The notes under the pieces are model-generated. The model saw nothing but the letters and a program-made list of their open reading frames with translations, was not told the origin of the DNA and did no database searches. Position numbers and translations under genes: made by a program. Below, piece by piece: positions 46,858 to 56,799 of a DNA stretch of 64,000 nucleotides. How positions within the stretch are numbered: the first letter of the stretch is position 1; the number at the start of each line of letters is the position of its first letter. Source of the stretch: Rhodopirellula sp. (GTDB taxonomy: Bacteria > Planctomycetota > Planctomycetia > Pirellulales > Pirellulaceae). Location: the NCBI GenBank assembly GCA_002689655.1, contig NZHC01000076.1:124001-188000 (forward strand). Direction: 5' to 3'.

Positions 46858-48024
46858 TCACAGAGACAAAATTGTAGTGCAAATGTGCTGCATCCTCGGC
46901 AAATGGAAGGGTCCTTTCCATAAGTTTCCTTTCAGTGTGGAAGTCACGCGTCCAGTCCGATCCAGATAACCAAACCACTCACCGTGGTCGGAATCAGGAA
47001 AATGCTGATAAGCCCATTGATGTACTTTTTGGTGCCAATCGGCATATTTCTGCCTTCCTGTCAGCTGAAATGCCAACAGTGTGGCGATGATCGCCTCGCA
47101 TTGAGGCCACCAAAATTTCATATCGTGCCAATACTCTTGAACCGGGTAGCCATGAACATCAGTGAAATACAGAATTCCGCCGTACTCTGAATCCCAACCT
47201 CGCTGCCACATCCAATCCAACATCTGGCAACCACTCTCAATCAAGGCAGAATCATTTCGATGTGCCCCCTCCCACATCAGAAACCAGGCGCCTTCAATCG
47301 CATGCCCGGGATTGAGAGTCCGTCCATCAAAGTGGTCAATCAGTTCACCCTTCATGCCAACCGTTTCCATGACACAATTCAGCTCAGGCTTATGATGAAA
47401 CCGCTGAATCGTTTCTATGCTCCTGTCGATCCATAAGTTGGCATCCGCAAAGCAAATGGATTCCCGCAATTCCTGAGCAGTAGCGATGGTGATCATCGGA
47501 AAACCGATGGATCGCATCTGCCTATGATCCGTGAATTTGGGGGGTGTATCAATTGGTTCAAGATTGTGCTGAACGAAACTATGAAAGGCCTTGACCGCAT
47601 GCTCTGCGTAATGCTTTTCTCCGGTAGCCTTGGCCAGCTCACCAAACGCGATTGCCGCGAAGCTCTCACTGAAGGCATACCGACGTTTACGTATTGGCTT
47701 GCCATCTCGGGTGACATGAAACCACATACGGCCATCACTGGCATCAAAACAGTGCTGCAATAGAAAATCGGCTCCATGGCGTGCCAAGTCTAACCATACA
47801 TCACGGGCTTCCACGTTGTTATACAGTTCACCAAGAAGCCACGTGAATCTACCTTGCTGCCAAACACCTTTATCGGTGTCGACTACTTTCCCTGTTTGGT
47901 CAACCGCCATCATGAATCCACCATGTTGGTGATCCACGCAGTGCTTTTCCCAGAACGGCATGGTGTCTTCCATCAAACCGTTGCGATAAATCGCTGCCAG
48001 TTCTTGTGAATTCAAGTGGCTCAT
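46858..48024 (-). CDS. AGE-family (N-acylglucosamine 2-epimerase-like) epimerase
   Basis: [64 protein letters not shown] motifs. Confidence 0.9.
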
Positions 48025-50651
48025 GCTGATGAACGACTCACCGCATCAGATGTTTTCTTACCATTCATCGTATAAATGGTCAGGCCTGCCAATTCATCCT
48101 CGTTGCGGGCTGGACCCAGCAAACTCACCACATAGCCGACGACAAAACAGACCCCGATACCAATGGCCGTGTAAAGGTAGCCGTTGATTGGAGTTTCTTT
48201 CCAAACCCAATACATCGTCAAAGCACCAACGATCGCTCCCGTCAACGCTCCCATGCCGTTGGCCCGCCTCGTCATCGCGCCCAGAACAAAAAGTCCCCCC
48301 AGCACGCCCATGAAAAGCCCGATGATTTTGAGGAACTCGTCAAACAATGACTTGATATCAGGATTCACAAACAACAATCCAATCAACGTGCCCAAGACAC
48401 CAATCACAAGTGTCAAGATTCTGGCCGATCGCAGGTAACCAAGATCGGTACGACAGACGTCGAGCGGCCGAAGAAAATCAGTGACAAGCGTCGTCGCCGT
48501 AGAATTCATACTGGTCGACACAGTTGATTGCGCCGCAGCGAAGATTCCCGCCACAATCAACCCCGCGAGACCAATCGGCATTTCATGTGCGATGAACAAC
48601 GGGAATATCTGATCCGTCGTGATGGTTGGATCAAGTTTTTGCGGATTCGATTGGTAGAAGGCATGCAAAGCTGTTCCGAGGCCGAAGAACAGAAAAGTCG
48701 CAACAATTGCCAAGCCAGCATTCAGCCAAATGGATCTTGCTGCCAAGTGACGATTTTTGGTCGTCATGTAGCGTTGCACGACCGCCTGATCAGCTGTGTA
48801 GGAAGAGACATTCTGTGCGACACCACCCACCACAATCACCCACAAAGCGATCTGCGCGCTAGTCGCATCCAGATTCAGATTGGTTATTTTAAATTTCTCC
48901 GAAGCCTCAGAATGATCAATGAAGCCCTGCCAACCACCGTCAATTCCTGAAAACAGAACAAACAATGCGATCAATGCTCCACCAAGTAATATGACTGTCT
49001 GAACGGTATCCGTCCAAATCACTGCCTCAATACCACCCATCGTGCAATACAGGATGCTCATGAACCCCATCAACAACACCGACTGCGTCGGTGTCAGCGG
49101 GGTAGCAACCGCCAATGCCATTCCAGTCAACGACATAACGACTGCCATTCGGAATACATGAAATAAAGTGAAGCTCGCGCTGCCAAATAAGCGTGTACCG
49201 CGATTGAAACGCTTCTCCAGGTATTCGTAAGCACTAGTCGCATCGATGCCACGATAAAAAGGCAAAGCCACATACACCGCAATTAAGGCAACGAGCGGAA
49301 TCATGAAATTTCCGACCGAATACACCCAGTCCTGAGCATACGATTTCGAAGGCACACCAGTGTAAGTCAGGGAACTAAGCATCGTGGCAAAAATACTGCA
49401 TCCCGCAGCCCACCAGGCAACACTCTTTCCCCCTCGAAAGAAATCATCTGTATTTTTTGTACGACGAGCAAAGTGAAAACCAATTGCCACCATTCCAAGC
49501 AAATACCCAATCAACACCACGTTATTGATGAATCCAAATTGATCTGCCTTCGGATTCACTGTCACCTTCCATACGTTTGGAGTCCGAACACGTGGCCTTA
49601 TTTCACCACTGGGTATGACAATGGCGTTATCCCATTCGACGGCAATGGTGGTCACCTGATTCTGAGGTGTTTTTCCTGCAGACACCCAGGTGTCCGTGAT
49701 CGTGTGGTATGCCCAAGCCTCCTGAGGAAAACCTGGATGATCATCACGCAGTTCATCAGCCTTAAAAAAGTTTGATTCATCTGCACCTCCCAGGATCAAC
49801 AGATGACTCTGACCCCAACCAATTCCGGTACCAGCCATCACACATGTGGGCACATCGGCTCGTGGACGCCATGCCTTGGAACTGGGTTTGTACTGCCACA
49901 CATCAGTGAGGAATTGGACGCCTTCTCCGTTCTGTCGTCGACCGCTGATAACATAGAGCGATTCCTCATAACCATCATGCTGGGCCAGTGTCAGATTAAA
50001 AGCGCGCGTCGGGCCTGGAAATTCAGCTTCCTTCTTCCAAGTAAACGCCCCTGAATTGGCACGTTTAGAAAGATCGAGTGACCACATCTGACTCGTTGCT
50101 GTATCGAGCGATAATCCGGACTGCCCGCAAGCGATGTATACCACCCCGTTATCCAAATCACCCAGCAAAGCTGCGGCACCAAAAGCACAAGGGTTAGGAA
50201 GAGAAGGGTAGTCGATGATCGTTACGTCACCAGTCCCTGCATCCACTTGCAACAAGAACACATCACTGAATGTGTTATCGCTATCGTTCCCTCCAATGCA
50301 CAAAACTCCTGCTTTGGTGGAAACTGCAGCACCATAGGCGAGTGGTCTCGGCAACTGCCCGGATTTCTGCCACGTGTATTTCCCATTTCTCTTGCGAAGG
50401 ACATGGATTTCGTCATGCCAAACTTTTCCACTCTCCCAAACTGGTCGCGGAAAGTTGGCTCCACCAGCCACGACAATCGCATCACCGTGCACGCCCACAA
50501 ATGGCCCTGCCACGCCAATCGAATCTGGCAATGGCGGTATCTCATCGCTCCATGTCAATAAATTCTCTTCGGCACCTTGACCACGCACCGGAACACTCGC
50601 GAACAAAACGCTTATTAACCACAAACCGAAACAGCAAACCAATACACGCAT
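48021..50651 (-). CDS. Kelch (NanM-type) propeller fused to sodium:solute symporter (SSS)
   Basis: N-terminal signal plus kelch repeats ([15 protein letters not shown]...[18 protein letters not shown]), then a 13-14-TM SSS domain ([39 protein letters not shown]); stop/start overlap with the AGE gene. Confidence 0.92.
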
Positions 50652-51634: not shown

Positions 51635-53332
51635 TTAGCTCTGCAGCAGATATTCGGAGTTGAGTAGTGGTGTGTCTTGGTTGATCAGGAAAGACCTTAG
51701 ACCAAATTGCTGTTGCTCACTATCGAGGTGCCACACACGCACTGCGGTCGGTGCAAAATTCGTCCATGCTTCGGTGCTGAGGAGTCTTTCCACGCGGTCA
51801 CGGATGCTCCGAGTCTCACCAACATAAAGCACTGAATCCTCGAACAAGACAACATAAACTCCAGGACAGTCGTATTTGGCTGAAAGGCATTTCTCGATCG
51901 CAAGACGATTCGGTTTACGTTGTTGGCTCCAATATTCTTGTTGGTCAGATGCAATCGTTCGATAACGTCTGGTACCTGCCCGCTTTCGCAATGCCAGCGC
52001 TGCCCACCGATATTCAAAGGATGAATAACCCGGAGAGAACATTCCCGCCAATTGATCAAACTCGCTGGCTGCCTGCGGGCTACACAACATCTCATCAAGG
52101 GTCATGCCATAGTCAATCCCAACCAGTCGCATGGCTGCTTCACTGCCGTCACTGTACGGATCCATGTCAGCGTAAGACAACCGTAGGCCAGAATTCGTTG
52201 ACTTCGGCAACTTTCCAGACTTTCGTATCCGTAACAGAAATGAATTCCACATTCGAGCATCGCCCGGTAGTGACCGCTCTCGGCAAGCGGACAAAAACCG
52301 TTTTGACAATTTGGGATCACACAGCAGATAATCTGTCGAATGCCCCTCAGAAGCTTCACCAAATGCCTCAATGACAGAGGACTCCGTTGCCGCATCGAGT
52401 GAAATTACTGGCCTGCCATTCTTGAATTTTGTGCGCTTTTTCCCTTTGGACGTTTTCGGGGCGCTCTTCTGTGGATCTGCTGGACCATCCAATTCCTGTC
52501 CAATTTCGCAGCCACTAATCCGTTCCTCTATCCGCGAAACGTACTCTTTTGAAAGCTCAAAACCATTCCACCGGCGACCCAGTTTCTTTGCCACGGCCAA
52601 AGTGGTACCGCTACCGCCAAAAGGATCGACAACCAGATCACCAGGGTTACTGGAAACACGAATGATCCGTCCCAGGAGTTGTTCGGGCATCTGGCAACCA
52701 TGAAATCCTTCGCGTTCCTTGAACGTCCCCGCAACACGCGAAAAAAACCAAGTGTCGTGCGACGGTGAAAAGCCCGGTGCAGGTGCATCTTGCGGACGCA
52801 AAATCCAAGTGTTATCCGGTAATCTTCCTTTCGTACTTGCTCGGCTGTCGGCATAGACAAGTTGCCTTGCAGAAGCGACTCGAACTGCCGGATTCTCACC
52901 ATTGAAAGTGAAGTCGTTAGCGTCTTTGACGAAATGGAACAGATGTGTATGCGAACGACTGAATCCACGCACGCAATTGACCCCGAAGGTGTAGTACCAG
53001 ATCACCCAACTACGTGTATGAAATCCAAGTTGCTGCGCAAGAACCTTCAGCTCGGCCGCATATTCGTCACCAATCGCGAGCCAAAACGTTCCACTGGGTT
53101 TGAGCGCGGTATGTACTTCACGAATCCAAGCTTCACAAAATTCCAGATAATCGGTCGTTGTCCGTTGATCATCGTAAACATCATACGAATAACCAATGTT
53201 AAAAGGTGGATCGGCGAAAACCAGATCCACTGAGCCTGCTTCCAGTTGCCGGAGCTTTTCGATGCAATTGCCCTGATAAATACGGTTCGGCTGGAGGGTC
53301 AAGACGGGACTCCCGTGATGAAAATGCACCAC
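51635..53332 (-). CDS. Beta-class DNA (N4/N6) methyltransferase with C-terminal GIY-YIG-like domain
   Basis: FADPPFNIGYSYD (motif IV) N-terminal to DPFGGSGTTLAVAKKLGRRWNGFELSKEY (motif I); C-terminal PGVYVVLFEDSVLYVGETRSIRDRVERLL...SEQQQFGLRSFLINQDTPLLNSE. Confidence 0.9.
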   Translation of the reverse strand: MVHFHHGSPVLTLQPNRIYQGNCIEKLRQLEAGSVDLVFADPPFNIGYSYDVYDDQRTTTDYLEFCEAWIREVHTALKPSGTFWLAIGDEYAAELKVLAQQLGFHTRSWVIWYYTFGVNCVRGFSRSHTHLFHFVKDANDFTFNGENPAVRVASARQLVYADSRASTKGRLPDNTWILRPQDAPAPGFSPSHDTWFFSRVAGTFKEREGFHGCQMPEQLLGRIIRVSSNPGDLVVDPFGGSGTTLAVAKKLGRRWNGFELSKEYVSRIEERISGCEIGQELDGPADPQKSAPKTSKGKKRTKFKNGRPVISLDAATESSVIEAFGEASEGHSTDYLLCDPKLSKRFLSACRERSLPGDARMWNSFLLRIRKSGKLPKSTNSGLRLSYADMDPYSDGSEAAMRLVGIDYGMTLDEMLCSPQAASEFDQLAGMFSPGYSSFEYRWAALALRKRAGTRRYRTIASDQQEYWSQQRKPNRLAIEKCLSAKYDCPGVYVVLFEDSVLYVGETRSIRDRVERLLSTEAWTNFAPTAVRVWHLDSEQQQFGLRSFLINQDTPLLNSEYLLQS

Positions 53333-53514: not shown

Positions 53515-56500
53515 TTACTCGACCACCAACACTCCATTCATCACCATCCAGTGCCCCGGGAATGTACACACGTAAGGGTACCGACCTGCTTCACTTGGCG
53601 TCAGAAAGTAAATGGTATGTTCCGCATAAGGCTCCACTACATTGGTGTGTGCCAAAATATCACTAGATACAGGGATGTAGTGTTGTGCCGCTGCCTGAGG
53701 GTCCGAAATCAGACGATTGCACTGCTCACCTACTTTCTGCAGCGTCTCAGGTTTTAGCAACGCCCAATTGTGGGGAACAGAATCAGGATTTTTAAATGTG
53801 AGTTTAACTGCCTGACCCGCGGGTAAATGAATCTCCGTTTGATCAAACATTAGGTTCTTTGCTGCCTTGAGCGTTAATGGCTTCGCCCCAGCAATTGCTT
53901 TATTGAATGGATTGCGTGTCGATACAACCGGTCTGGAAAGGTCAGCTAACATCGGATGTGGCAAGACAATCTTATCCGTTGGTTCATAAAACGGAAAATC
54001 CTCAAACGCGTTATCAAGATGATTAACAGACATGAACAAGTCATGTTCTTGGCCTTCACCTGTAGTGACTAACAAATGCAACTGGTTGACCCTTTGCAAA
54101 TTCCTGATTTCCAAAAAAAGACTTTTACCATTTGGTAAGACACTGACCGACTGCACATCAAGAACATCATGTCCACGCAGCCCCAACTGCCGTGCGGAGT
54201 ATTCTGGCGAACCATAGGCACCACTGTATCGATAGTTCCAAGCCTGGGCGAAATGGGAATCAGGATCTGCAACCTGTGTCTGATCGATAGGCTGCAGAAA
54301 ATCGACCCGAATACCATTTTCATGAACGTGAAATCCCACCGGCAACTGTGGCTTGTCACCGTTGTACCGCACGCGTTGGAAACAACCGTCATCGGTCGTG
54401 TAAGTTCCCCATCCAGCCATACCAGATACGTATAGCTGGCCATCCAGTGGATTGAATTTGCCGCGGTGAGCACCGGAAGCAAATTCACCAGCAATTGGAA
54501 TCACTGCACCTTGAATCCATCCATCGAACTCATCTCGAAGCAACAAAAATGCGCGACCTGCACCAAATGACAGGTGCACCATCTGACCTTTGACTGGTCC
54601 CCAGCGATCACTGTCGACGTAAATCTGTCCTCCACTGGAGTTATCCAAGCCACGAGGAAGATAAAGCATGGGAATCTCAGGTGGCTGTTTCAGATCACCT
54701 CCAGGGCGACCAAAAAACGGAATATTGCGACCATCGGGGGATTGTCCTCGCAAGCGATTCAGAATCGGACCTTCGGGACGAACAGCTGCAATCATCGATG
54801 CAGGCATCCAGTCGCCTTCACTGCTTGGAATTGTCACCAGGCCATCCGGTGCCAATCCCAAGCCATCTGAATTCCTCAGGCCATTGGCGACGATCTCGGC
54901 AGACTCGCCATCAGCAGCGATTCGCATCACACCCTGCTTACCCGAGGCGGTATAAAAACGACCTTCGGTATCACGCCACAAATCACATGTAAAGTCATGA
55001 CCTGACGCGGAGGTTTCCAAAGCCTGACTGAAACACTCGTAATAGTCGATTTCCCCATCATCGTTCAAATCATGAAGACGAGTCAGCTGATCTCGCCCGA
55101 TGACGAAAATCTGATCCTCGTGGACGACCATGCCGAGTGGTTGAAACAGCCCCGACGCGATCCGCCGCCAGACAATTTTTTGAAGACCATCATCCAACCC
55201 AGCGGCTTGCCAAACATCACCTTGCATCGTGCATAGAACTGCGGATCCATCCGAAAGGAAATCATGGCCGCCTCCGTACAACAACGCTTTCCACGGATTA
55301 TCACGAGGCAGCGGAATCTGATCTACAGCGTATGGCGTAGTCGTCCCAAGTTCACCCTTAACAATCACTGTCTGCGGCCATTGCTTTTCACCACCCAGTA
55401 GATGCTCGCGATCAGGATGATCCGAACGAGGTGCAACGACGCTGACGAACTTACCATTCAACATCTGCGGGGCATCGAGGTATTCCACCCCATCTACCAG
55501 ATAAGAAAAAATAATCCGATCACCGTAACGATAGAGACCCAGATACTTTTTCGTTTTCGCATTTGCCAAGAATTCACGGTCGGCAAACTTGACTTCCAGC
55601 GTTTTTCCAACTTGCTTTAAACCTTGCATGAACCCATGTCGGACCGTCGAAAATTCGATAAAGCCACCTGACCAGACCCGTGGATAAGTCAAGGTATCAG
55701 GATCGAAACATGCCGACAGTCGCTGCTCTCCTCGACCAACCTGTAAGCACATGCCACGCGTCACTCGAATCTTGTCTCCTGTGAATACGCCGCACAAAAG
55801 ATTTCCAAGATCAGTTTCATTCCAACGTCCATCGGCCCAAGTTGGTTCGGATTGGTTTCCCCAATGCCCATCTTTACCCCCATCGAGCCCCGGAAACTGG
55901 GCTAATAGCTCGGGACGTGGCGTAACATCACGGAAGTACCGGGCCTGTTTTCGATAAAAATCATAAAGGCGATCACGGTTCACGTTTGCTTGCCAATTTG
56001 GCCAACGCTCCGGTTCAAGCGGTTCACGCGCCATCGCGAATGATTCGGGATGATGACCGTGCGAATGTGACAGCAGAGCATCAACCCCAGCAACGCTGAC
56101 TTTCTCGTGTTGGCCAAGATCGGCCAGGAAAGAAATCAAATCATGCTTGTCCTGCAAGGCCATCGTGGCCAACAAACCAACCGGCATCAGAGACCCAACC
56201 GAACTTATCGCTTCGATGTCGTCTTGCCTAATCGAGATGGTCTCGCCGGTTGCGCTATCGCGAAGCACCAAAGCAGAATCATTTTCACTGACCCGATAAC
56301 CGCGAACTACATGACCATCAATATTTAAAACAGCGATCGCTTTGTACTCATCAACTACCACGCGTTGAGGCCAGAACAACGACTCAACAATGTGAGCAAG
56401 CTTCTGCTTCTTCCCGACTTCGCTCAAATCGGGACCAATTGCGCCACCATGATCACCTACCTTGTGACACGACAAACATGCGCTCGTCGGCGCCGAATAA

Positions 56501-56664
56501 ATCACTGCTCCGCGGCCGGGATTGCCCTTCTGCAGTGACTCTGTCACCAAACTTTTTACGAGCTCCGCATCGTATGGCAGTTCGTCAGCAACTATCGAAT
56601 TAGCACCGTAAAATCCGTCGATGAGCAGAAAGATGGCCACTGAAAAAAACGGTAGAGATCGCAT
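53515..56664 (-). CDS. Multidomain secreted protein: cytochrome c-type haem motif, beta-propeller, azurin/plastocyanin-like copper domain
   Basis: CLSCHKVGDHGG near the N-terminus; propeller middle; C-terminal HNWALLKPETLQKVGEQ...YVCTFPGHWMVMNGVLVVE. ATG at 56664 precedes the signal peptide. Confidence 0.85.
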   Translation of the reverse strand: MRSLPFFSVAIFLLIDGFYGANSIVADELPYDAELVKSLVTESLQKGNPGRGAVIYSAPTSACLSCHKVGDHGGAIGPDLSEVGKKQKLAHIVESLFWPQRVVVDEYKAIAVLNIDGHVVRGYRVSENDSALVLRDSATGETISIRQDDIEAISSVGSLMPVGLLATMALQDKHDLISFLADLGQHEKVSVAGVDALLSHSHGHHPESFAMAREPLEPERWPNWQANVNRDRLYDFYRKQARYFRDVTPRPELLAQFPGLDGGKDGHWGNQSEPTWADGRWNETDLGNLLCGVFTGDKIRVTRGMCLQVGRGEQRLSACFDPDTLTYPRVWSGGFIEFSTVRHGFMQGLKQVGKTLEVKFADREFLANAKTKKYLGLYRYGDRIIFSYLVDGVEYLDAPQMLNGKFVSVVAPRSDHPDREHLLGGEKQWPQTVIVKGELGTTTPYAVDQIPLPRDNPWKALLYGGGHDFLSDGSAVLCTMQGDVWQAAGLDDGLQKIVWRRIASGLFQPLGMVVHEDQIFVIGRDQLTRLHDLNDDGEIDYYECFSQALETSASGHDFTCDLWRDTEGRFYTASGKQGVMRIAADGESAEIVANGLRNSDGLGLAPDGLVTIPSSEGDWMPASMIAAVRPEGPILNRLRGQSPDGRNIPFFGRPGGDLKQPPEIPMLYLPRGLDNSSGGQIYVDSDRWGPVKGQMVHLSFGAGRAFLLLRDEFDGWIQGAVIPIAGEFASGAHRGKFNPLDGQLYVSGMAGWGTYTTDDGCFQRVRYNGDKPQLPVGFHVHENGIRVDFLQPIDQTQVADPDSHFAQAWNYRYSGAYGSPEYSARQLGLRGHDVLDVQSVSVLPNGKSLFLEIRNLQRVNQLHLLVTTGEGQEHDLFMSVNHLDNAFEDFPFYEPTDKIVLPHPMLADLSRPVVSTRNPFNKAIAGAKPLTLKAAKNLMFDQTEIHLPAGQAVKLTFKNPDSVPHNWALLKPETLQKVGEQCNRLISDPQAAAQHYIPVSSDILAHTNVVEPYAEHTIYFLTPSEAGRYPYVCTFPGHWMVMNGVLVVE

Positions 56665-56799
56665 GAGCTGCACCTGGTGAGCGATTGGTGTATCTGCAAT
56701 GGACCAACGGCTGGAGTTGCTCGTTGGTAATGTTTTAACTGACTTGCCTGGCCACACGGAGCAACCCGCCGAAGATCTCCCCGACGAATCCGTGCAACC

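Follow-up and report, generated by a model that had tools for sequence, protein, structure and literature searches.

A methyltransferase fusion gene in a metabolic operon

The window, that is, the whole 64,000-nucleotide stretch of Rhodopirellula sp. DNA that was analysed, carries on its minus strand a gene (51635..53332) that fuses a DNA methyltransferase (MTase), a tandem-repeat region and a GIY-YIG domain with the features of a pseudonuclease. The frame, at the position given in the earlier note, is open for 565 codons from a GTG. A TTG at 53302, which would give a protein of 555 aa, is an alternative start equal in quality to the GTG, and it is as likely to be used because the alignable part of close relatives begins near this codon. 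Residues 35-269 (52526..53230, minus strand) form a beta-class N6/N4 DNA MTase domain, which matched the Pfam family PF01555 (N6_N4_Mtase) with E=1.2e-51 and a score of 176 bits, compared to a curated cut-off of 26.7, and whose best solved relative was M.MboIIA (PDB 1g60, E=5e-27). In agreement with the beta-class order, motif IV (DPPF, residues 41-44, 53201..53212, minus strand), which is invariant or nearly so among 16 aligned fusions, lies ahead of motif I (DPFGGSGTT, residues 236-244, 52601..52627, minus strand), placed by the same alignment. The MTase of the window protein is probably active. Matches to the NCBIfam models of the YhdJ type (PRK11524, E=3e-42) and of CcrM (E=3e-35) were both below cut-off, and therefore the specificity of these enzymes cannot be transferred to it.

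The neighbours of the fused gene are a DHDPS-family gene, a NanM-like/sodium symporter fusion and a GlcNAc 2-epimerase gene, and this gene order is kept in close relatives. The surroundings are a metabolic operon, not a defence island, and no separate restriction gene is adjacent, as had been noted before. The symporter frame (48021-50651, minus strand) encodes 876 aa with an N-terminal NanM-like Kelch domain and a sodium:solute symporter, and sits between the GlcNAc 2-epimerase gene and the DHDPS/NanA-family gene; this region is likely a catabolic operon of the sialic-acid type, in which an epimerase and a transporter are fused. Upstream of the fused gene, a 1080-aa protein (53515-56757, minus strand) combines a DUF6797 domain with a C-terminal cupredoxin-like domain.

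Fold and active-site residues of the C-terminal module

Between the two recognisable domains the earlier note had seen about 180 aa of unknown sequence. A Pfam search of this region matched no family, in keeping with that description, but most of it turned out to consist of two tandem copies of one helical repeat (residues ~311-383, 52184..52402, and residues ~384-455, 51968..52183, both minus strand), whose homology was supported by hhalign with E=2.7e-8 and a probability of 95. A PDB fold search with the model of the module returned nothing that matched the helical repeats, and these results point to an undescribed helical repeat domain. The proposal that the middle region serves the MTase as its own target-recognition domain was rejected: MTases of the same order that are 60-69% identical lack the region, which makes a role in choosing the methylation site unlikely.

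The C-terminal domain (residues ~485-560, 51653..51880, minus strand) was analysed by structure prediction and profile search. An AlphaFold model of the C-terminal module, computed from a 57-sequence alignment of it, reached a mean pLDDT of 95.4 and a pTM of 0.91, and the nine top PDB matches found by Foldseek were all UvrC GIY-YIG domains (TM 0.67-0.75 by target length, probability 1.00). The family profile matched the same solved UvrC chains with E of about 1e-8, and a genome-wide profile search with the module also picked up UvrC-like ORFs. The Pfam GIY-YIG match of the single window sequence was weak (E=0.055, below cut-off). Because both the fold matches and the family-profile matches lead to UvrC, the predicted GIY-YIG fold can be regarded as secure and not as a chance pattern, and the architecture of a beta-class MTase and a GIY-YIG-fold domain in one chain is borne out.

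To place the active-site residues, the window protein was compared in alignments with UvrC and with stand-alone relatives of the module, with UvrC numbers taken from PDB mutant names and spacing. Results showed that Y493 corresponds to UvrC Y19, Y503 to Y29, R513 to R39, L517 to Y43, R546 to E76 and N558 to N88. The GIY...YIG motif, the Arg and the Asn are therefore all kept, which confirms the GVY, YVG, Arg and Asn of the original reading. The UvrC N-terminal GIY-YIG domain (PDB 1ycz, 1yd0-1yd6) shares the fold and the positions of the two Tyr, the Arg and the Asn, but it has Glu76 and Tyr43 where the window protein has Arg546 and Leu517, and UvrC carries neither the repeats nor an MTase. Arg546 (51695..51697, minus strand) thus stands where active enzymes have the catalytic Glu that binds the metal (UvrC E76, Eco29kI E142), and at the partner position of the R-x3-H/Y motif the His/Tyr has been lost to Leu517. 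Glu539 (51716..51718, minus strand), which had been taken for the catalytic residue, was rejected in this role, since its counterpart in UvrC 'TE-KEALILE' is the upstream Glu, which is not catalytic, and since Glu539 itself is unconserved outside the genus.

We then compared these positions across 119 distinct MTase fusion sequences from Planctomycetota. Glu was found at the metal-binding position in none of them (Q 49, K 31, R 29, W 6, A 2, V 1, I 1). In contrast, it was kept in at least 18 of the 21 stand-alone repeat+GIY-YIG modules that could be scored, a lower bound because one module scored as non-Glu (L031) has, by direct count, a Glu twelve residues before the final Asn, and in all 18 UvrC-like domains. 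The difference between fusions and stand-alone modules gave a Fisher p of about 6e-20 when relatedness is ignored. The His of the R-x3-H/Y motif showed a similar distribution: 21 of 22 stand-alone modules have it, as against 17 of 119 fusions. The Asn was kept in 117 and the Arg in 98 of the 119 fusions, so that among the Arg, Glu and Asn whose conservation the earlier note had made decisive for a nuclease, only the Glu was found to be missing.

Both lost residues are essential in Eco29kI: the E142A mutant shows 0% cleavage and still binds DNA, with a Kd of 45 versus 16 nM (PMC1952068, Table 1), and H108F likewise shows 0% cleavage (PMC1952068). Because the Glu, and in the window protein also the His/Tyr, are gone, we infer that the fused GIY-YIG domain does not cut DNA. 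An alternative is that the fusion is a one-polypeptide restriction-modification enzyme of a type IIC-like kind, in which the GIY-YIG domain would cut unmethylated sites and the MTase would protect them, as had originally been suggested. The architecture and the retained Tyr, Tyr, Arg and Asn would suit such an enzyme, and an artificial Eco29kI restriction-modification fusion is functional (PMC3039593). However, in type IIC enzymes both the nuclease site and the MTase site of the single chain are intact, and here the essential Glu is absent from 119 of 119 fusions and the R-x3-H/Y residue from the window protein and most others; the gene lies among metabolic neighbours, and its MTase is near-universal, single-copy and mostly without the module. 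We consider this alternative highly improbable.

Distribution, trees and stand-alone relatives

In a search of 60 relatives, about 20 of the 21 genomes from the same genus proved to carry the full fusion. Named genomes were also scanned with a sequence pattern; the 80 top-ranking of 578 matches included fusions from Rhodopirellula baltica, Stieleria tagensis, Rhodopirellula sp. JC639, strains TBK1r, Pan216 and K23_9, and many MAGs. The fused protein found no match over its full length in one same-genus genome (G021; best E=9e-15), which carries two stand-alone module genes (L039 and L045), of which L045 is divergent and without the catalytic Glu. Across an even sample of the order Pirellulales, the MTase was detected in 112 of 119 genomes, single-copy in nearly all and mostly without the module. 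About 35 of this sample have a long MTase frame, and the module was present in 18 of the 20 long frames checked. Unfused orthologues, which are about 58-70% identical, mostly stop no more than a few dozen residues beyond the MTase, and their tails are usually rich in K/R. In the phylum as a whole, about 13 of 244 genomes carried full modules; a search of phage and plasmid collections for the module gave no match.

In a quick MTase tree with several poorly filled rows, fused and unfused proteins were interleaved and required 12 changes. In the module tree, calculated with the active-site columns masked and with the root unplaced, fused and stand-alone modules were nearly separate and required two. 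These topologies fit a single origin of the presumed dead module, with patchy loss or transfer thereafter.

The patchy presence of the module, together with motifs that are degraded in some relatives (VSET in L017, Trp at the Glu position in L020), would also be expected if it were a decaying remnant with no present function. Median dN/dS values from twelve genus relatives were 0.017 for the MTase, 0.059 and 0.038 for the two repeats and 0.080 for the GIY-YIG part; because dS is near saturation these values are rough, and only their ordering and general level are to be trusted. Judged from this general level, the fused module is under purifying selection and is being maintained. Such low values, and retention of the module in about 20 of 21 genus relatives and in more than 100 species, speak against decay, which we regard as improbable.

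In five loci (L033, L093, L121, L124 and L128) a stand-alone repeat+GIY-YIG gene with the Glu comes directly after the fused gene and overlaps or abuts it. This gene order recurs on a viral contig (L222), where the second gene is readable only as a repeat fragment. These six tandem loci suggest a restriction-modification ancestry. They raise the possibility of a domesticated pair, in which an ancestral MTase was accompanied by a repeat+GIY-YIG nuclease, one nuclease copy became fused to the MTase and died, and the remaining active twin may cooperate with the fusion through shared recognition or as a heterodimer, the window lineage having lost the twin. The two changes needed on the module tree and the carriage of the MTase on viral contigs are in line with this history. 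However, most fused loci lack an adjacent twin, no stand-alone module was found when the window genome was searched, and the module tree has no placed root; we give the domesticated pair about one chance in four. A stand-alone module protein without the catalytic Glu was also seen at L035:4654-5862, where it carries an N-terminal HicB-family domain.

A probable solitary methyltransferase with a putative tethering module

With no cognate restriction gene adjacent and with conservation across the lineage, the MTase has the hallmarks of a solitary enzyme. We consider it moderately likely that the fusion is an active, housekeeping-type solitary MTase with a C-terminal pseudonuclease module for tethering or targeting, and not a one-chain restriction-modification enzyme. 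The module, with its two homologous helical repeats and GIY-YIG domain, would have been borrowed from a GIY-YIG nuclease, and loss of the metal-binding Glu, plus the His/Tyr in the window protein, would have abolished cutting. It would then substitute for the short basic tails of many unfused orthologues and, in what is the weakest step of the proposal, would most likely bind DNA or a partner and hold or steer the MTase. Median net charge was about +1 for the GIY-YIG part and +3 for the repeats; the module is not strongly basic, and DNA binding is therefore not obvious from its composition. A bolder proposal, which we think rather unlikely, is that a lineage-wide epigenetic MTase co-opted a dead restriction nuclease for reading DNA or binding a partner, and that where the active twin gene follows, the two proteins make up a restriction-modification pair of a new kind, in which the MTase bears an inactive version of the nuclease it is paired with.

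Searches of the literature on inactive GIY-YIG domains, on GIY-YIG and methyltransferase proteins of Planctomycetes and on Planctomycetes methylomes found no description of the protein. Eco29kI and Hpy188I share with it the GIY-YIG fold and the link of a GIY-YIG nuclease to DNA methylation, but they have an active nuclease with its catalytic Glu, encode nuclease and MTase in separate genes and lack tandem repeats (in part PMC1952068, PMC2630997). In Lactobacillales, an Slx1-like GIY-YIG domain is fused to a COG4123 N-methyltransferase in the same one-chain order, with the methyltransferase N-terminal (PMC1564403). That MTase is of the NPPY class, unlike the PF01555 beta class found here, and the fusion has no tandem repeats and belongs to another lineage. 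The solitary beta-class MTases CcrM and YhdJ share the MTase family and the lineage-wide single copy, but lack a pseudonuclease module. All in all, the fusions point to an uncharacterised DNA methyltransferase nearly universal in Pirellulales. A natural series leads from active GIY-YIG nucleases by way of gene pairs of nuclease and MTase to fusions of MTase and pseudonuclease, with the key residue lost in every fusion, and the step from restriction to epigenetic housekeeping is therefore testable in laboratory-grown Rhodopirellula and Stieleria.

The MTase was also present, at 45-63% identity, on fifteen viral contigs (L222-L236), fourteen of them without the module, which suggests that viruses of these bacteria copy host methylation. 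Among the unfused MTases, those of L027-L030, L161-L180 and L190-L220 end in basic tails, that of L027 being long, Lys/Ala-rich and histone-H1-like. A pattern picked post hoc, Q..[LM][PFLT], which resembles a sliding-clamp-binding motif, occurred within the last 20 residues of 13 of 45 unfused MTases, compared to 0.9 expected from shuffles.
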